Made by a program: the position numbers and the translations under genes
From: a virus
IMG/VR virus record: IMGVR_UViG_3300033978_000480
Span: 1 to 64,000 of that record
Length of the DNA stretch: 64,000 nucleotides
Direction: 5' to 3' (one strand)
The notes under the pieces: generated by a model
The model's database searches: none
Seen by the model: the letters and a program-made list of their open reading frames with translations, nothing else
What the model was told of the DNA's origin: nothing
Shown: one piece after another, positions 1,620 through 55,472 of the stretch
How the letters are laid out: every line of letters begins with the position of its first letter
Numbering within the stretch: the stretch's first letter is position 1

Positions 1620-2705
1620 TTGAGTGTATTTGATTTTGTTGCGCATGTTCGGCGCTACAAGTTGCGCCCGTGGCGTGTAGCACGCGTTGGTCGACGAATG
1701 TCGCAGACGTTTGCGCAACAATTCGGGCTGCACTTAGATAGCATAAAAAGCTACAAAGTAGTTGTGGCGCGTACAAATGCTGTACGCAATAAATGGGCGA
1801 TGCGGTTGAAAGAACTGGCTTCGAGAAACCTATGGTTTCCGCATTCAAAAAACCTGAACCCGTATTCCGCCGATTTTGACCTTAAAAAATTTACGCTTAC
1901 GTTTCAGCGTTGTTTATTCTGCCGCCCGTCGTATTTGTATTTTTTCTGGAAGCGTACAAAAGTTTTTAGGCCGTGTAACCGATCGTACTTCTGTCCGTTT
2001 TGTTTTGCTCGCGTCAGTCAGGCGCAGTACGTTCACGTGCGCAAAAAAATACGGGCTATTGGCAATCAGAACTCCAGTACGCCACTTATTGCCACATGTC
2101 GCGTAACCAGTCGGTTTTTGCCGGCGCCTGACTTTGATCTGATATCTGGCTGCGACAACGATAAAGTCTCGGAGTACTCGCGGTTGTTATGGGGCGAGTT
2201 ACGGCGAGAGCGTGCCGCGTATCAAAAACTAGTTAAACAATTGAATCGAAAAACGCGCGGATCTATGTGGCGGCTAGTTGTAGTGCCGCAAGACACCGGC
2301 TGGATTATTGAGACGCGTCAATTTCTGTTGCATCAGCCAAAAATAAAGATGCCGTTTGTGCGACCCAAGAATGGCAAAGTGGTGTACCTGAAATCTATCA
2401 AAGCCGCTGTTTGCTATAACCAGTCCGACACAGAATTTTATTTTATGCTGGGGCAGTTCAATCGGTATCCAGTCGAGCTATTGACTGGCTACGCTGAATT
2501 GACCGCGGCATATCTGCGCGCCGTCGACGGGATGCACACTATTTCAGGTACCGGTATTTTTCGCCGGGCTGGGCGGTCGCTTGTTGAGCTTTTCAAAGCG
2601 AGGCACGAAACACATGGCGAAGGCGAGAAGAGGCAGAAAAACAACGTACGCCCAGTACCGGCGGAAAATGCTGCACGACGATCAGCCGTGGCGTCAGCGC
2701 CTTGA
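1620..2705 (+). CDS. Zinc-ribbon protein, possible replication- or DNA-binding protein
   Basis: 361 residues from a TTG with AGGTGAAAG upstream. The N-terminus is strongly basic. Cys98/Cys101 and Cys125/Cys128 form a CxxC...CxxC zinc ribbon (RCLFC and FCPFC), with an extra Cys119, followed by a basic helix (ARVSQAQYVHVRKK). Such ribbons are common in DNA-binding proteins and in some plasmid and phage replication initiators, but no HUH or other catalytic motif is clear. The last 92 bases overlap the next gene, and the basic tail could be an artefact of that overlap. The zinc ribbon is direct evidence; the DNA-related role is inference. Confidence 0.6.
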   Translation: MSVFDFVAHVRRYKLRPWRVARVGRRMSQTFAQQFGLHLDSIKSYKVVVARTNAVRNKWAMRLKELASRNLWFPHSKNLNPYSADFDLKKFTLTFQRCLFCRPSYLYFFWKRTKVFRPCNRSYFCPFCFARVSQAQYVHVRKKIRAIGNQNSSTPLIATCRVTSRFLPAPDFDLISGCDNDKVSEYSRLLWGELRRERAAYQKLVKQLNRKTRGSMWRLVVVPQDTGWIIETRQFLLHQPKIKMPFVRPKNGKVVYLKSIKAAVCYNQSDTEFYFMLGQFNRYPVELLTGYAELTAAYLRAVDGMHTISGTGIFRRAGRSLVELFKARHETHGEGEKRQKNNVRPVPAENAARRSAVASAP

Positions 2706-3801
2706 GTATGTTTGTGCGCAGCTTTTTAACAGCAGTACGTACTATTTTGCCCGCGGCATCGAATTAGACGTAACGCACGTTAAAAAAGTTTTAACTAGCG
2801 AGCGCAGCGTCACGGTTAAATTCTTAGCGCAGGTTTTAAGTCACACGGCTGTTCGAGCTGACTGGTTAATTTGGGGCAACGGCCCTATGCTGTACGCTGA
2901 GACTCCGGGCGTATTATCTGTTCCGGCAGATTTTCAAAGTCTGTACCCGGTTTTTAATACGCTTACTGCAACCATTCCACCGGTGCAAATTATGCCGCTA
3001 GCACCAATAGACACGCACACCGAGTTGTCAAAAAACCATGTTGCAGCAGCAAACGCTATTCACACCGCTCGTTGCGCGAATAGTCGCGTAATGTTGTTTG
3101 TTAGCGCGCCGGCCGTATACGCTGGCGCTGGTATTGTCGCTGCAGACATGTTGCGCAAAAAATACCTCACGTCTGTTTCAACAACCGGCACAGGTTTGCT
3201 GGCTGATATTGAAATGGCTCAAACGCCGCAGACAGTTGATTTGAATTACGTGGCGCGGTTAGCTGCAGGGCAGGGCGTTGGCTATGGCGAAGCTGTTGGC
3301 CGCTGGGCGTTCAATGCAAAAGATATCAAAACGCGCAGTTTGTTCTATACGGCGTATTCGCTTGGTGTGCCGGCTACGGCGCACGTAGAGATGGGCGAAC
3401 TACGCGCGCATACTGGACCGTCGGCCCGCGGCGCTGAGTTAGGCGCGGCTATCGGCGCCGCGAGCTATACCGACTTGCTGGTATTCACAGAACAAGTCCG
3501 GCAGCTGTGTGAAACAACAACCGGCGTGTTCATTTTTGTCGGCGACACTGGCCGCGGCTTGCAGTTGTTCTTGCAGGCTCGCGCAGCAGCTGCAGGAACC
3601 GCAAATGAGTTTATTGCAATTTTTATTGACAGCTACGTTCAACCTGAAACACAAGACTACGTTAAAAGTCAGGGAGGACAAAGCTACACACTGACTGGTA
3701 CATACCGGTCAAACTTGTCAAATCTTTTACGCGCATGCGACGCTATTTTTAGCGGAAAGAATCCACATGATGATCAAACAGCAATTATCGACAATTGTTA
3801 G
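2614..3801 (+). CDS. HTH / deoxyhypusine-synthase-like fusion protein
   Basis: 395 residues from ATG 2614, which follows AGGCACG. An in-frame TTG exists at 2581 and an ATG at 2668. Residues about 45-93 resemble the helix-turn-helix of phage CI-type repressors, ending in DWLIWGNGPM. Residues about 155-380 match the Rossmann-like fold of the deoxyhypusine synthase family: a hydrophobic strand then AGAGIVAADMLRKKY (170-184), STTGTGLLADIE (189-200), SLFYTAYSLGVPATAHVEMG (242-261), and a Gly/Ala-rich GPSARGAELGAA. The family binds NAD and normally transfers an aminobutyl group from spermidine to eIF5A; bacterial homologues may act on other substrates. The Lys-containing catalytic segment of the eukaryotic enzyme was not located, so activity is uncertain. 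A DHS-like gene joined to an HTH domain is unusual for a phage. It overlaps both neighbours. Confidence 0.65.
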   Translation: MAKARRGRKTTYAQYRRKMLHDDQPWRQRLEYVCAQLFNSSTYYFARGIELDVTHVKKVLTSERSVTVKFLAQVLSHTAVRADWLIWGNGPMLYAETPGVLSVPADFQSLYPVFNTLTATIPPVQIMPLAPIDTHTELSKNHVAAANAIHTARCANSRVMLFVSAPAVYAGAGIVAADMLRKKYLTSVSTTGTGLLADIEMAQTPQTVDLNYVARLAAGQGVGYGEAVGRWAFNAKDIKTRSLFYTAYSLGVPATAHVEMGELRAHTGPSARGAELGAAIGAASYTDLLVFTEQVRQLCETTTGVFIFVGDTGRGLQLFLQARAAAAGTANEFIAIFIDSYVQPETQDYVKSQGGQSYTLTGTYRSNLSNLLRACDAIFSGKNPHDDQTAIIDNC

Positions 3802-4912
3802 GAAGTTTTTGAATGATTTTGAAGGCGTAGATACAGCACACAAACTTGTCCTTGCCGCTTGTACGTTAGAGTTATTTCGGCAGGCGCAGACTCCAGAAAA
3901 ACGTGCGCCCTTTTTTCGGGCATTGTCTGAGTTTGCAAAAAATGCTCACGATGTAAATTGGGGCGCTGTTCCGTTTTCGTTTACAAAATACGCGCTGACA
4001 GACGGCCGCCGGGTTGCCGTGGAGTATGGCGCAGATCCCGAGCAGATCGACGACATCTTGATTGAGGCGTTAGCCGTATTTTCAGATTTAATCTGTGACG
4101 GCTTTGCAGATTCGGATGTAAAACCCGAAGCGCTTTTTGACGCCGTTATCGCTGAACTAACAGAAGCAAAAAAGACGCAGACGGTAAAGACAAAATTTAA
4201 TGCTCCCGAGATTCACGCAGAGCGTATGTTGTCGCGAGTATTTAAACCGGCTGAGTTCACAGACGACGTTGCAAAAAAGTCTGGCGCAAGCCTTGTGACC
4301 TTTCGAGACAGTCTCCCAAACGGCGATCCCGGCCCGTCTTTGCGCGGTATCGCGTTTGACAACGGAACGAACCAGTGGCTCGTCTTGCTTGAAACAGGCG
4401 AATTCGTGCGCCGGACGAAAGGCGACGAGTCAATTACGGCCACAAACACGGCTGAAGATTATGCGGCTGTTTGTCCGGCGTTGCTGTTGTTTGTTTACGT
4501 TGCCGCCAAAGAACTACATACGTGGGCGATACTAGACGACGCGCAGTATGACTTCATATCAAAACAAGCTGGCTTTGGGTCGCTCGTTAAACAGCACGCT
4601 GCTGTAGTGGCGCGGCAAGAAATGGTCGCGTCGCTTGAAAACGTTATTGACGCAGCGACCGAAGACGTTAATCTAGGCTTAACTGGTGCCACGGGGCCAC
4701 ACGGCGCGTCCGTTCGATTTGCGGTCCCCGAGACTGATTTCGTAATTGTGCTTGACGCTATGACGTCTACTACAGGCCCATACGTCGTTGCTCGACTTAT
4801 GCAGCATGAGCGTGTCTTAATGCGGTTGGAACACCCGCGGCAATTCTCTACGCGCGGTGTGTATTTGTTCCCGCTTGCCGGCCATGCTGTCTCCCTCACC
4901 GTAATTCACTAA
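3767..4912 (+). CDS. Hypothetical protein
   Basis: 381 residues from ATG 3767, preceded by GGAAAGAA and overlapping the end of the DHS-like gene by 35 bases. The N-terminal third looks helical. The C-terminal half alternates hydrophobic strands and ends in a short beta-rich segment. No catalytic motif or membrane segment was found. It is translationally coupled to the DHS-like gene, so a shared pathway is possible but unproven. Confidence 0.65.
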   Translation: MMIKQQLSTIVRKFLNDFEGVDTAHKLVLAACTLELFRQAQTPEKRAPFFRALSEFAKNAHDVNWGAVPFSFTKYALTDGRRVAVEYGADPEQIDDILIEALAVFSDLICDGFADSDVKPEALFDAVIAELTEAKKTQTVKTKFNAPEIHAERMLSRVFKPAEFTDDVAKKSGASLVTFRDSLPNGDPGPSLRGIAFDNGTNQWLVLLETGEFVRRTKGDESITATNTAEDYAAVCPALLLFVYVAAKELHTWAILDDAQYDFISKQAGFGSLVKQHAAVVARQEMVASLENVIDAATEDVNLGLTGATGPHGASVRFAVPETDFVIVLDAMTSTTGPYVVARLMQHERVLMRLEHPRQFSTRGVYLFPLAGHAVSLTVIH

Positions 4913-4920
4913 GGTATTAA

Positions 4921-5193
4921 ATGACTAACTTTGATTTTGGCGGATTTCTCAATGAAGAAAATCCCTACGTGCACGAAAACGAAGAGTCTGGTTTTGAAGA
5001 GTACTTAACCGTCAAGGCGTTGCTGTGTTTGAAATTTGGCGACGTTCGCGGCGGCGCTATTTATCGCATGCTGACGACGTATGCGAAGCGCGCCACGAAA
5101 GGCATGTCTGGAGAACCCGGTATTTTGTTTAACGGGGAAGGCGGTGAGTTCGTGAGCTTTAACGACAACGCTAGAACCGCTGACGACGAGTAA
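4921..5193 (+). CDS. Hypothetical acidic protein
   Basis: 90 residues, acidic at both ends, with a short basic helical centre (MLTTYAKRATKG). The start is preceded by AAGG at suitable spacing. I do not recognise it. It lies eight bases after the previous stop in the same run of genes. Confidence 0.6.
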   Translation: MTNFDFGGFLNEENPYVHENEESGFEEYLTVKALLCLKFGDVRGGAIYRMLTTYAKRATKGMSGEPGILFNGEGGEFVSFNDNARTADDE

Positions 5194-5234: not shown

Positions 5235-5828
5235 ATGTATTTGTTCTTCGACACGGAAACAGGTGGTCTAACGCCAGACCATAGCTTGCTGACGTTGTCT
5301 GCAATTGTGACCGACGACAAGTTTAATATCATTCCAACGTTAGGTTTTGATCCCGGCGTGTATGTGCGCGTGAAATACGCTAATTACGTCGTGCATCCAA
5401 AAGCCATGGAAGTCAACGGCATTAAACTAGCTGACAACGACGCAAACGGTTTTACCGTAGCGGAGACAAAAGAAATTTTTGTGTCGTTTATCAAAGAAGC
5501 TTTAGCGACAACTGGCTGCAGAAAATTAATCCCAGCTGGACATAATGTGCCGTTTGATACGCGGTTTGTCCAAGCGCATTTGCTGCCAGAGCGCGACTGG
5601 GGTCTGTACTTCACACATCCGGCTTTTGATACCTGCGCTATTGCGCGGTTGCTGACAGCGGCTAACGTCATTTCTGGCGGCTGCGGCTTGCCGAAGTTGT
5701 GTACCGCTTTTGACATTGATCCCGGAACAGCGCATAACGCCGAAAGTGATAACCTTGCGACCATAGAGCTGGCAAAAAAATTCACGGCTATCGTGCCGCC
5801 GTCATTAAAAAAACGTAGCGGGATGTAG
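5235..5828 (+). CDS. DnaQ-like 3'-5' exonuclease (DEDDh)
   Basis: 197 residues. Exo I is FFDTETGG (Asp6, Glu8), Exo II is HNVPFDTRF (Asp108) and Exo III is HNAESD (His167, Asp172). This completes the DEDDh signature of RNase T/DNA polymerase III epsilon-type nucleases, which remove 3'-terminal nucleotides with two metal ions. The length is that of a stand-alone exonuclease domain. The start is supported by AAGGAA upstream. It could proofread, process RNA ends or act in recombination. The phage polymerase has its own exonuclease motif, so a separate role is likely. Confidence 0.9.
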   Translation: MYLFFDTETGGLTPDHSLLTLSAIVTDDKFNIIPTLGFDPGVYVRVKYANYVVHPKAMEVNGIKLADNDANGFTVAETKEIFVSFIKEALATTGCRKLIPAGHNVPFDTRFVQAHLLPERDWGLYFTHPAFDTCAIARLLTAANVISGGCGLPKLCTAFDIDPGTAHNAESDNLATIELAKKFTAIVPPSLKKRSGM

Positions 5829-5832
5829 CGGT

Positions 5833-5903
5833 TGCCCGATGGTGTAACGGTAGCACAAGAGATTTTGGCTCTCTTAGTCTAGGTTCGAATCCTAGTCGGG
5901 CAT
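5833..5903 (+). tRNA. tRNA-Gln(UUG)
   Basis: A complete cloverleaf can be folded by eye: acceptor TGCCCGA/TCGGGCA, D stem GTGT/GCAC with AACGGTA loop, anticodon stem AGAGA/TCTCT, anticodon TTG, and T arm CTAGG-TTCGAAT-CCTAG. The anticodon reads CAA. The 3' CCA is not encoded; the bases after the acceptor are TTA, so the discriminator would be U. CCA addition would need a nucleotidyltransferase. It is the only tRNA seen in the window. Confidence 0.95.
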
Positions 5904-7159: not shown

Positions 7160-8332
7160 ATGACTCCGTTGTTTGTTTTCTGCGCTGATCTTCATTTGGA
7201 AGACGGCGCGTGGTCAACGCGGCCGGGTATCTATGGCGACGCGTACTACAGCTTTAAACAGATTATCGATTACTGCATTGAATATCGCTTGCCGTTGATT
7301 CTGGGCGGCGACGTGCTTGAGAAGAAAAGCAACTCCGCCCGACCTATCGCGAAACTTTGCGAGGGTCTGACGCGCATGCAGTCAGTTGGTCTAGACGTGT
7401 ACTATATTCAGGGTAATCACGAGTATGACCGGAATGCGCCGTGGCTAAGCGTTCATTCGTGGCCCGTGCATATGCACAAGAATACGTACAACATTGGCGG
7501 CGCAAACGTATACGGCCTCGACTGGTTACCAAAGGGCGAGATTCAGACAGCTTTTACGGAAGTCCCAAAAGACACGCACATCTTGATTGTGCATCAGGTC
7601 TGGAAAGACTTCATGGGAAACGTAGGCCGCACCGAGTGCGAGCTGACTGACGTGCATCATGTGCAGACTGTACTGGCCGGCGACTTCCACGTAACAAAGA
7701 CAGTGGAAAGCACGAACGCGCAGGGCCAGCCAATTAAGATGCTTTCGCCCGGCTCTATTTGCATGCAGGACTGCGGAGAAGAAGCCAATAAGTTCTTTTT
7801 TGTAATCGGCGCAAATGACGACGGCACGTTTGAATTTCGACCTGTACCGTTGAAGACCAGACGGTTTCTGGACTACACGGTGAAAGAACAGGAACTGCTC
7901 GATAATCTATGCGCCGGCTATTTGACCAATGATATCAAAGACGCGCGGTCGCAGATGCCGCTACCTGACGAGATCGCCAAGCCGATCGTGCGTATTAAGT
8001 TTAACAAGCAGTTGCCCGACGCGTTTCTAAGACTGACGACAACCATCGGTGACGCAGCGCACGTCTTTTGCGAGGCGCTTACTAACAAGTACGACGTCGA
8101 GAAAAGATCATCAGGCCGCGAGGGTTCTAAGAATGACCTGCTTACGGCCATTGCAGACCTGTTAGGAGAAGACACTGACGCATACAAACTAGCCGCGGCA
8201 ATGTTAAACGCGGACGATGCTGGAAAAGAGCTTGATGTACAGTTTTCTAAGTTTATGACGGGAGAACAAGAAGATGCAGCTCTTGAGACTGGAAGTAAAG
8301 AACTGGGTGCACCACCGCTATCGAGTGTGTGA
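7160..8332 (+). CDS. sbcD: SbcD/Mre11-like nuclease subunit (T4 gp47-like)
   Basis: 390 residues. The calcineurin-like metallophosphoesterase motifs are in order: ADLHLED (about 9-15), GGDVLE (about 48-53), GNHEYD (about 84-89), VHQ and AGDFHV. These bind two Mn ions and cut DNA ends in the Mre11/SbcD family. The C-terminal region is the usual length for capping and SMC-binding parts. The last 59 bases overlap sbcC, as expected for co-translated complex subunits. In T4 the pair gp46/gp47 makes recombinogenic 3' ends and helps degrade host DNA. Confidence 0.93.
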   Translation: MTPLFVFCADLHLEDGAWSTRPGIYGDAYYSFKQIIDYCIEYRLPLILGGDVLEKKSNSARPIAKLCEGLTRMQSVGLDVYYIQGNHEYDRNAPWLSVHSWPVHMHKNTYNIGGANVYGLDWLPKGEIQTAFTEVPKDTHILIVHQVWKDFMGNVGRTECELTDVHHVQTVLAGDFHVTKTVESTNAQGQPIKMLSPGSICMQDCGEEANKFFFVIGANDDGTFEFRPVPLKTRRFLDYTVKEQELLDNLCAGYLTNDIKDARSQMPLPDEIAKPIVRIKFNKQLPDAFLRLTTTIGDAAHVFCEALTNKYDVEKRSSGREGSKNDLLTAIADLLGEDTDAYKLAAAMLNADDAGKELDVQFSKFMTGEQEDAALETGSKELGAPPLSSV

Positions 8333-41320: not shown

Positions 41321-43117
41321 ATGCCATTTACACCTCCAAAGGTTTTGTTGATACGGCTACGCTCAATGAGCGCAGTGTCGTATTGGAGTGCGGGTGGACC
41401 GTGGAATGGATACGCGTACCGCTGGTCTGCGACGCTTGATGTTTCTCCGCAGCCGCACGGGGATCCAACAACCCCAACCCCGAATTTTTATGACGGTAAT
41501 GATATTAAAGTCGGTGACTACATTGTCACTAGCGGTCAGGGTCGAATCCTAAAAGTATCGGCTATTACGTCTGCCGCCGATACGGTTGTGCAGTGTGTGT
41601 TGGAAGATGAAAACCAACAAAACACACTTTCAAATGAGGGACAAGACGGCGACGGCAGCGTCACATCAGACGTAGACGGCCTGTTATTTGAAACAAAAAA
41701 CGGCTGGCCTATTCTTCATCCGCTGCCTAATTCTTTAAGCGGTAGCTTGCCGCCATATTTCTCCGCCGACGTCATTGCGCGTTTTATGTACACGCGCATC
41801 GACACGGGTGGCGGCGGTAGTTCAACTGTTGGGCCGTCTGGGCCGACTGGCATTACCGGGCCTACTGGTCCAACCGGTGTTGGCGCGAGCGGGCCGACGG
41901 GTCCTACTGGTCCAACCGCCGTCGGCGCCACGGGCCCGACTGGTCCAACTGGTGTCGGAGTTACTGGTGCTACAGGACCTACCGGCGCGTCAGTAAAAAT
42001 TAAAGGTCATCTTGTTCAGTGGCCGCCAAGCTCGTCGCCGCAGTTTGGCGACATGTGGCTTGTACCGACGCCTGTACCAGCTGGTATCCCGTCTAATCTT
42101 AGTGCCGTTGCTGGCGACGGCATCGCGTGGGTAGAGTCTGGTTCGGCCGGCGGCTGGCTAAATCTTGGCCCTATCCGCGGACCGCAAGGCCCGAGCGGCG
42201 CACAAGGCGCTCAGGGTTTGCAGGGCATAAATGGCGTTATGGGTCCCACCGGCCCATCTGGCGTTTCCGCGAACAGTCTGGTGCTTAGTGTAAACGCGCA
42301 AACCGGCGCAGTGTCTTTGCAATCTGATGACATCGCGTTAGATACGGCGATTACGGTAAAAGCTGTAACGCAAGGCAGTTATGCCGACGGCGTTGTTATT
42401 CCAGCTGGCACGCCGTTATCAGATATCATTAAAAATATGCTGCAGGTTCGTGTGCCAGCTACATATACGGCACCTACGCTCACTATTTCAACAGTTAATT
42501 CTCTGGTATTTGAATACGGCGCTACCGTAGCCGGGAACGTAAACTTGACGTGGGCGCAAAATGACGCTGGCGCCGCAACTTCTTTTGCCTACCGCATCGA
42601 CAATACGTTTGTTCAAACTGTCCCGGGTTCTTCTCCCGCGGCGTTTATTTTTTCAGTACCAAACGGCACTGCCGCGTTCACAATGTCTGGGCGGGCTGTT
42701 CACACAGCTGGTGCTCAAAAACCAGACAACTTTGGCAATTTTGTCGATCCGGCAATTCAGGCTGGTACGATATTCACGAGTAACTCGCTGACTTTTACGC
42801 CGCAATATAAGCGTTATTGGGGACTCTCTACGGCCACTAGTATTTCTGACGCGCAAATACTGTCGTTAAACTCCGAGCTATCAGCCACACGCGTTCAAAC
42901 CAGAAACGACTTCCAGCCCGCTAATCAGTACATTTATATTGCGTATCCAGCAGCGTTTGGGCTGGCGACGATTAAATTCAACGGTTATATTTCTACCAGC
43001 GCTTGGGAATTGACAACGCGATCTTTCGTAAATGCTAACTCGTTCTCTGCGTCGTACCATATTTATCGCACAAAATACACGCAGAACTCGCCGGACATTG
43101 ATATTGAGGTGCTGTGA
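41321..43117 (+). CDS. Collagen-like tail fibre protein
   Basis: 598 residues. After a 165-residue beta N-terminal part come Gly-X-Y repeats (about 170-223), then a Trp-containing module ([15 protein letters not shown] ... [10 protein letters not shown]) shared with the 53,298 protein, a second short collagen stretch, and a long beta-rich C-terminal domain with YKRYWGLS, typical of phage receptor-binding tips. It probably forms a trimeric fibre or spike. The downstream gene starts at a TGATG overlap. Confidence 0.8.
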
Positions 43118-53297: not shown

Positions 53298-55472
53298 ATG
53301 GCCAAGAAACGTATTTCAGATCTGCCCGCGAAGGGCATTCCTGATCAGAATGACTTGCTGGCCATTGTTGACCAGCAGGAAGCTCTTCCGACGACGAAAA
53401 AAACAACCGTCGGAAACTTACTCGCGGCTTTAAATATCTTAACGGTTGGTCCTACGGGGCCAACGGGACCATCTGGCGCAGCTGGCTCAGTCGGCGCAAC
53501 AGGGCAAACAGGTCCGACAGGTGTATCAGGCGCTTCGGGTGAGGTTGGCGGTAAGGGGACCACAGGTGCTACTGGTCCAACAGGTGCAACTGGCCCAACT
53601 GGTCCAGTAGGTGCAAACGGTCTTGTTGGACCTACTGGCGCTACTGGACCGACAGGCGTCGGCACAACGGGTCCTTCTGGTCCGTCTGGCCCGTCTGGCG
53701 GTAAAGGTTCAACCGGGCCTACCGGTCCAACAGGTGTAGGTACAACAGGCCCCACGGGCCCGAGCGGCGTTGGTGGTTCTACCGGCCCGACTGGTCCGAC
53801 TGGCCCACAAGGCGAGCGTGGTTTTGCCGGATCTTCTGGCTTACAAGGTTTATCCGGCCCAACTGGCTTGACAGGTCCGACCGGTCCAACTGGCGTAACA
53901 GGTCCGTCTGGTCCCGTTGGTCCGAGCGGCGTCACTGGTGCAACTGGTCCTACCGGCCCGGCTGGTCCGTCTGGTGCGCAGGGCGAAGTTGGCCCAAGCG
54001 GCACTCAAGGTATACAGGGTATACAGGGTATTCAGGGTCTTAACGGAACCCAAGGCCCGAGCGGCACACAGGGTTTGCCGGGTAGTAACGGCGCTGTTGG
54101 CGCAACTGGCCCGACCGGCGTTGGTGTTACTGGTCCGACTGGTCCGACAGGCGTAACTGGCCCTACTGGTCCGACAGCTGTTGGTGAAACAGGACCTACG
54201 GGACCAACTGGTGTAACCGGCGATACTGGACTAACAGGCCCAACCGGCCCATCTGGTTCGACTGGCCCTACAGGCCCGACTGGTGTATCTGGTGTTGGTT
54301 TTAATTTTCTAGGGCAGTGGGTAACTGCAACTGCTTATGCCGTAAACGACGTCGTTACGTTTAACGGCAGTTCGTATATTGCCATTAGTTCTGTTCCGTC
54401 GGGTTCTAACTTTTTACCGTCGGCAACGCCTACGCGTTGGGCGGAGCTAGCAATTCGCGGCGCTTCTGGTCCGAGCGGCCCAACAGGCCCGTCTGGTTCA
54501 GCTGGCCCCACTGGTCCGACAGGCGAAGTAACCACAGGCCCAACTGGACCTACTGGCCCCACCGGCCCAACCGGACCCACCGGCCCAACCGGACCCACAG
54601 GTTTAAGTGTCGTATTTCGCGGTACTGCATCTTCGTGGCCGCCGACTGGTACGATCGCTGTTGGCGATATTTGGATCGTAGGCGACGCCGCTGCCGATGA
54701 CGATGATCTTCCAGCAAACGCTGTTGCTGGAACTGGTCTTTACTGGAATGGCTCCACGTGGGTAAACATTGGCCAGATTAGAGGCGCGATCGGCGTTACA
54801 GGCCCGACCGGCCCAGTAGGAACAACAGGCGACCGCGGCCCATCTGGCCCGTCAGGTCCCACCGGCCCGACTGGTGTTAGCTTTACAGGCCCAAGCGGCC
54901 CAAGCGGTTCTGCTGGCGCAGCTGGCCCGTCTGGTCCGTCAGGGCCTTCTGGCGCTGCGGGCCCGTCTGGTCCGTCAGGCGCGCAAGGCGGAGTAGGTCC
55001 GTCTGGTCCGCAGGGTCCAAACGGTGAGCCCGGCACGCCGGGAGCTTCTGGCGCTCGCGGAACTGACGGATCAACTGGCCAGACGGGGCCAACAGGCGTT
55101 ACTGGTCCAACTGGTCCGACAGGTGTAGTAGTTACCGGACCAACCGGACCAACTGGACCAACGGGCTCATTTGCAATCGCGCAAGATATTATTAGCGTAG
55201 CCACTAATCGCACACTAACGGCGACCGACGCTGGTAAAGTAATTTGGTGCATCAACACCGTACCGATTACGCTCACAATTCCGGCTAGTGGTTTTGCTGT
55301 TGGCACTAACATCGATATCGTTCGCGGTTCTGCCGTAGTTGCAATTGTCGGTGCATCTGGCGTGTCAGTATTTGGTACGCCGGGTTTAAATCTGCGCGCG
55401 CAATATAGCTCTGGTAACTTACTGCAGCTCGCCAGCCAGTCGTGGTTGTTTGCCGGTGACACAACAATTTGA
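53298..55472 (+). CDS. Large collagen-like tail fibre protein
   Basis: 724 residues. N-terminal [14 protein letters not shown] ... [12 protein letters not shown] is the same anchor type as at 40,710. Gly-X-Y repeats (mostly GPTGPTG, GPSGPSG) cover about 51-335, 393-440 and 503-635. Between them lie a chitin-binding-like module ([17 protein letters not shown] ... TRW) and the Trp module shared with the 41,321 protein. The C-terminal 85 residues are a beta domain of the type found at the ends of many phage fibres ([14 protein letters not shown] ... [13 protein letters not shown]). Trimerisation through the collagen-like shaft is expected. Confidence 0.9.

Follow-up and report, generated by a model that had tools for sequence, protein, structure and literature searches.

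The window analysed here is the whole 64,000-nucleotide stretch, positions 1 to 64,000 of a 157.5-kb virus record (IMG/VR IMGVR_UViG_3300033978_000480). An intact open reading frame (ORF) from an ATG at 2614 to a stop at 3801 encodes a 395-aa protein in which an HTH domain is fused to a domain with the deoxyhypusine synthase (DHS) fold, and every motif that an earlier sequence-only reading had quoted for this gene was present. The fusion ORF overlaps the zinc-ribbon ORF upstream (1620-2705) by 92 bp and the ORF downstream (3767-4912) by 35 bp, confirming the overlapping three-gene unit proposed in that reading. The features of the locus are as follows.

1620-2705, plus strand: zinc-ribbon protein gene, first of the unit and upstream of the fusion; start at TTG 1620 or a nearby codon
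2614-3801, plus strand: HTH-GSU2086 fusion gene, 395 aa (ORF, profile and model evidence)
2614-2679, plus strand: basic N-terminal tail, residues 1-22 (low pLDDT; K/R-rich)
2683-2898, plus strand: CI/XRE-type HTH domain, residues 24-95 (PHROG and PDB profile matches, model)
2770-2793, plus strand: probable recognition helix, residues 53-60 (helix in the model; role by analogy with CI-type repressors)
2935-3756, plus strand: complete GSU2086-type DHS-fold domain, residues 108-381 (profile-profile comparison and Foldseek)
3238-3243, plus strand: site between residues 209 and 210 where a loop of about 19 residues (GQFGLWxETG in cellular proteins) is missing (alignment with the cellular family)
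3274-3291, plus strand: retained QGVGYGE motif, residues 221-226 (its E226 is shared by all 23 fusions and by 99% of the cellular homologues)
3370-3411, plus strand: retained P253...G261...H266 segment (all three residues in all 23 fusions)
3640-3645, plus strand: site of a deleted loop with the cellular YYFRPxKT motif, at about residues 343-344 (alignment with the cellular family)
3767-4912, plus strand: g3767, third gene of the unit, 381 aa, function unassigned; conserved beside the fusion in related phages
4921-5193, plus strand: g4921, small conserved gene after the unit, 90 aa, function unassigned; recurs in related phages
7160-8332, plus strand: SbcD-like metallophosphoesterase gene, used as synteny anchor

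Profile searches, alignment-based ones included, matched no known family for either the zinc-ribbon protein or g3767. The zinc-ribbon gene holds a position common to the related phages and the phage contig G319, and residues C94, C112, C118 and C121 (counted from 1641) were invariant among 16 phage homologues. Comparison of g3767 with the small ORF beside GSU2086 in G319 and its relatives was not significant (E 0.046, probability 1%). At 5235-5903, in the interval that separates the fusion unit from SbcCD, an RNase T-like exonuclease gene has tRNA-Gln(ttg) directly after it. Repetitive collagen-like tail-fibre proteins with many PHROG tail matches are encoded at 41321-43117 and 53298-55472.

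The AlphaFold model of the fusion protein, computed from 23 phage homologues, had a mean pLDDT of 83 and a pTM of 0.73, and showed an alpha/beta domain preceded by a basic tail, the five helices of the HTH (residues 24-87) and a linker modelled with low confidence. The first 30 residues contain 10 K/R against 2 D/E. The helices of the HTH span residues 24-38, 42-48, 53-60, 68-77 and 82-87, the third being the probable recognition helix. Profile searches matched the HTH to PDB entry 4ich (E=6.6e-6), to 434-type and other CI repressors (E ~0.2) and to a PHROG family (7e-5); Foldseek matches of the fusion to phage HTH proteins were weak (best E 8.8e-3). The profiles and the model thus support the five-helix HTH with recognition helix expected of a CI/XRE regulator, in agreement with the CI-type HTH suggested earlier.

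We then considered the second domain. Its NCBIfam match was GSU2086 (NF052581; E=2.8e-27), at 96 bits below the family cut-off of 250 bits, and Pfam gave no family, with no DS match at E up to 1. When the fusion was aligned by hhalign with 40 cellular GSU2086 proteins (E=1.9e-37, probability 99.95), the alignment spanned cellular residues 1-322. Because it covers the cellular protein end to end, N-terminal segment included, it was a complete protein to which the HTH became fused. Every one of the 17 sequences in a mixed phage and plasmid alignment matched GSU2086; only five matched the DHS model, weakly, and weak TIGR00321/PRK02492 matches occurred in a few members. The 50 best Foldseek matches in the PDB were all DHS, AgrE/ArgZ or LOR/SDH proteins (best E 6.5e-6, probability 1.00), none of an unrelated fold. 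The DHS fold itself was supported at probability 1.00 and E ~1e-5, with TM scores of 0.35-0.42 for the full-length query. A model of a cellular GSU2086 homologue (pLDDT 94) had the same PDB neighbours as the fusion. Against viral structures (BFVD), no match passed 1e-3, and the best were mostly HTH proteins. The DHS-like assignment of the sequence-only reading therefore stands for the fold but not for the family, since the nearest family, as judged by profiles, is GSU2086 and not DHS.

A genome scan found 276 GSU2086 relatives, of which 80 were kept for analysis, from Acidobacteria, Planctomycetes, Chloroflexi, Armatimonadota, deltaproteobacteria, Clostridia and others. These cellular proteins are stand-alone and 306-339 aa long, except for one of 214 aa. 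Of the 80, 71 had a PfkB/HldE-like kinase, HAD or SIS (GmhA-like) gene within 6 kb, and two plasmid relatives had the same kind of neighbours. In Geobacter, hldE and gmhA flank GSU2086, and similar fitness defects on electrodes were seen for all three genes (PMC5585712). These kinase, HAD and SIS neighbours, together with the Geobacter placement, tie the family to heptose/sugar-phosphate metabolism. GSU2086 is related to the ornithine-cyclodeaminase domain of AgrE/ArgZ, is linked to heptose-pathway genes and appears to be a so far neglected enzyme in sugar pathways of the heptose type. Across the cellular loci (L048-L127), it was widespread in bacteria beside HAD, PfkB/HldE and SIS genes.

Next, we compared the fusions with the 41 near-invariant residues of cellular GSU2086, 22 of which are kept in the window protein. 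In cellular numbering, G143, E146, P176, G184, H189, G200, Y204, D206 and G226 were kept in all 23 fusions; H67, E110, F121, G122, D186, P232, N244 and R284 were lost in all 23, and H98, E101, E233, K237, K287 and H307 in nearly all. The His-Asp-x-Glu of cellular GSU2086 reads A-D-I-E in the window protein and is variable in its relatives, and the L019/L022 branch has lost the Gly-rich first half of the DHS-fold domain. The NAD contacts of PhoDHS include Thr101, Ala102, Gly103, Glu107 and Asp214 (PMC7432094). These five were the alignable contacts, in an alignment extended by hand to reach Asp214: Thr101 corresponds to T191 and is kept, Ala102/Gly103 to G192/T193, Glu107 to A197 and Asp214 to G261. 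The NAD pocket anticipated by the sequence-only reading was thus retained at one position of five (T191). Cellular GSU2086 also differs from DHS at most of these positions, and the NAD-side strand largely preserves Thr191 and Asp198. The loop in which the DHS catalytic lysine (K329 in human) would be expected is deleted relative to cellular GSU2086; this placement of the lysine is presumed rather than taken from a tool alignment. Since the NAD contacts are mostly changed and the presumed catalytic-lysine loop is absent, an NAD-using effector or protein-modifying enzyme, as had been suggested, is unlikely. We take this pattern to mean that the original catalysis was lost and that selection now maintains a different function; the retained residues could be structural only.

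With SbcD as anchor, 42 related phage loci were found, and the order zinc-ribbon gene, HTH-GSU2086 fusion, g3767 and g4921 recurred in about 25 of them, so that a search of other phages did recover the three-gene neighbourhood. The fusion proteins were 27-56% identical over their length. A further scan added three fusion records. In all, about 29 phage records carry the fusion, almost without exception between a zinc-ribbon gene and a gene of unassigned function, with one copy per genome tested. Wherever it could be estimated, dN/dS was 0.03-0.22 in both domains, indicating that both are under strong purifying selection. The fusions formed a single clade (SH-aLRT 99). No HTH-GSU2086 fusion occurred among 297 genomes of one bacterial phylum or in 80 cellular loci, and a bacterial origin of the fusion itself was rejected on these grounds. 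In one related record of 79.7 kb (L035), the zinc-ribbon and g3767 homologues are adjacent, about 25 bp apart (L035:2657-4759), and the fusion gene is missing; because both neighbours remain, the gene is dispensable at least there. Four different queries gave no direct phage match in INPHARED. Genomes of this phage lineage are about 200 kb, and among the matches listed no INPHARED record exceeds about 26% identity to its family A DNA polymerase. The group is remote from named phages.

An unfused form of the gene was found at this locus in one metagenomic contig, G319 (L159). Its GSU2086 protein, detected with the cellular alignment, is stand-alone and intact, scoring 311 bits (above the 250 cut-off) and holding 39 of the 41 residues. 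G319 is colinear with window 7.2-36.9 kb, with more than 15 genes in the same order from SbcD (36% identity) through DNA polymerase (44%) as far as a late gene at window 34920 (60%). The locus in G319 has the flanking genes of the fusion locus and consists of a zinc-ribbon gene, GSU2086, a small ORF without assigned function, a full-length HldE and SbcD, and its zinc-ribbon homologue matched that of the window at an hhalign E of 2e-9. Aligned starts place the GSU2086 start probably at codon 21 (L159 position 5989), where the overlap with the zinc-ribbon gene would be 11 bp. The nucleotide-sugar cluster of this contig (L159:482-9369) comprises RmlA (over its cut-off), a dTDP-glucose-4,6-dehydratase-like gene, GSU2086 and HldE, with no GmhA-like gene; the first two lie upstream of the zinc-ribbon/GSU2086/HldE locus. 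A viral scan with the G319 SbcD matched only itself.

A second phage lineage, G316, has a stand-alone GSU2086-like protein (L155:7351-8376, near 139.4-140.4 kb), found with the fusion profile, which scored 238 bits, just below 250, and holds 31 of the 41 residues. This copy is far from the zinc-ribbon-HldE-SbcD locus of G316; both G316 and G317 keep the zinc-ribbon gene and HldE ahead of SbcD. In the basal fusion phages L033 and L034, HldE immediately follows g3767. Full-length phage HldE genes (heptose kinase plus adenylyltransferase) were located at L033:6318-7811, L034:6948-8462, L043:7662-9119 and L044:7530-9158, all at the same locus before SbcD and scoring 187-250 bits against the HldE model. 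No HldE was found in fusion phages with records near 200 kb, and no GmhA-like SIS gene in any phage tested. Heptose/sugar-phosphate genes are absent from the window record; HldE adjoins the fusion unit in L033/L034 and lies one ORF from the intact gene in G319. In the tree, the stand-alone phage copies fell between the fusions and the cellular proteins, and support for a joint viral origin was only moderate (SH-aLRT 87). The most economical history would have an HldE-GSU2086 sugar module at the locus, followed by HTH fusion with loss of the original catalysis, and later by loss of HldE.

We consider it somewhat more likely than not that the protein began as a phage enzyme of the heptose pathway, gained an HTH and turned into a DNA-binding regulator that responds to a ligand, has no catalytic activity and is probably an oligomer. 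On this reading, an HTH of CI/XRE type, together with its basic tail, was added to the N-terminus of a GSU2086 protein encoded between the zinc-ribbon gene and SbcCD. The enzyme domain would then have lost its presumed catalytic loops and most active-site-like residues, while the core and the residues of the pattern GxGYGE...P...G...H...G...Y.D were retained. The tetramers formed by DHS enzymes have D2 symmetry (PMC7432094), and tetramerisation of this type could present the HTHs in pairs. The fusion may thus bind phage or host DNA as an oligomer and act as a transcriptional regulator, with the retired enzyme domain supplying oligomerisation and probably still binding a small ligand that tunes DNA binding. 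The ligand would perhaps be the original sugar-phosphate or a nucleotide, a heptose-pathway metabolite being the first guess. This agrees with the metabolite-sensing regulator that the sequence-only reading had listed among its options. The architecture, fold, homology, loss pattern, purifying selection and conserved locus with an unfused relative were directly established, and the ligand and the target promoters are the least certain parts of the regulator reading. The operator search covered the region ahead of the unit in the window and the whole record; it gave no palindrome in the former, no over-represented dyad in the latter and nothing above chance, and a promoter scan did no better than shuffles. 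In close relatives, a TAATG junction overlapping the start of the zinc-ribbon gene points to another ORF ahead of it, and the promoter may therefore be located before that ORF.

A narrower version of the regulator reading, in which the fusion senses the host lipopolysaccharide precursor pool through a heptose-phosphate or ADP-heptose-type metabolite in the retired GSU2086 pocket and switches phage genes, is in our view speculative and unlikely. If true, the change from viral metabolic enzyme to regulator could be traced directly, since phages existing today would represent each of its stages: unfused, fused with HldE retained, and fused with HldE lost.

Other explanations were weighed against the same evidence. 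The loss of the presumed catalytic loops, the basic tail, the lack of an operator in our searches and the constant company of the same two proteins without known family would also suit a DNA-organising or scaffold protein. There, the DHS fold would only supply the tetramer known from DHS enzymes (PMC7432094), binding no ligand, and the HTHs would bridge or package phage DNA or recruit the zinc-ribbon and g3767 proteins. We consider this possible though somewhat improbable, as the polar residues E226, H266, Y285 and D287 are kept in all fusions and nearly all cellular enzymes; this points to a pocket common to both, though the residues may instead be structural. An enzyme of altered chemistry, held on DNA by the HTH and using NAD or a nucleotide to modify a sugar-phosphate, nucleotide or host protein, for example in counter-defence, is quite doubtful. 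It can draw on the NAD-dependent DHS, AgrE and LOR/SDH relatives, on the largely kept Thr191 and Asp198, and on the stand-alone phage copies, which look catalytically intact; but no fusion retains H67, E110, D186, P232, N244 or R284 and almost none H98, E101, E233, K237, K287 or H307, the PhoDHS contacts Glu107 and Asp214 are not kept, and the L019/L022 branch lacks the Gly-rich first half of the domain.

A genuine deoxyhypusine or homospermidine (SpeY-like) synthase acting on polyamines or a translation factor would account for the fold and for the few weak TIGR00321/PRK02492 matches. Its score of 11.9 bits against a TIGR00321 cut-off of 304, the changed NAD contacts and the deleted loop led us to reject this very improbable explanation. 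That the gene is a decaying pseudogene or a chance ORF is hardly conceivable: many enzyme-family residues are indeed lost and L035 lacks the gene, but the frame is open in about 29 records, the retained residue set is sharp, and dN/dS of 0.03-0.22 in both domains argues against a chance ORF. Conservation and dN/dS led us to reject this explanation too.

GSU2086, the DHS fold and XRE HTHs have all been described individually; none of the libraries and papers searched contained them combined. The DHS fold was not found in viruses in INPHARED or among BFVD structures, and a published BLASTP search found no SpeY homologue in viruses (PMC9992855). If the regulator reading is right, the DHS fold would be seen in a new role, serving a DNA-binding protein as its effector or scaffold, and related phages would hold a rare enzyme-to-regulator series at one locus, with a likely starting form, an intermediate context and an end form. 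The results also link large uncultured phages to heptose metabolism and flag GSU2086 as an uncharacterised protein tied to a widespread heptose pathway.

Among known systems, the GSU2086 family (NF052581) is closest: the whole domain aligns end to end, and GxGxGE, P...T.HV..G....H, G...Y.D and G310 are kept. Its members, however, are highly conserved stand-alone proteins (~320 aa) of bacterial heptose/sugar-phosphate operons, whereas the phage form carries an HTH and two loop deletions. The C-terminal ornithine-cyclodeaminase domain of AgrE/ArgZ and the LOR/SDH protein 3c2q share the fold, and their His-Asp-x-Glu motif is common to cellular GSU2086; the fusion lacks the arginine dihydrolase part of AgrE/ArgZ, and A-D-I-E replaces the motif in the window protein. 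Deoxyhypusine synthase and the homospermidine synthase SpeY likewise have the DHS fold (Foldseek probability 1.00), but the fusion falls below the cut-off and keeps neither the NAD contacts nor the presumed catalytic-lysine loop. CI/XRE phage repressors share the HTH fold and a WLxxGxGPM ending, whereas the second domain of the fusion appears to be a retired metabolic enzyme rather than a LexA/S24-type peptidase or another known CI C-terminal domain. Regulators derived from metabolic enzymes or folds include RpiR with its SIS domain, NagC of the ROK kinase family and BirA; to our knowledge, the DHS fold has not been described before as part of an HTH regulator. The fusion resembles RpiR, NagC and BirA in joining an HTH to a metabolic fold, and differs from them in that the HTH-DHS-fold fusion was found here only in phages.
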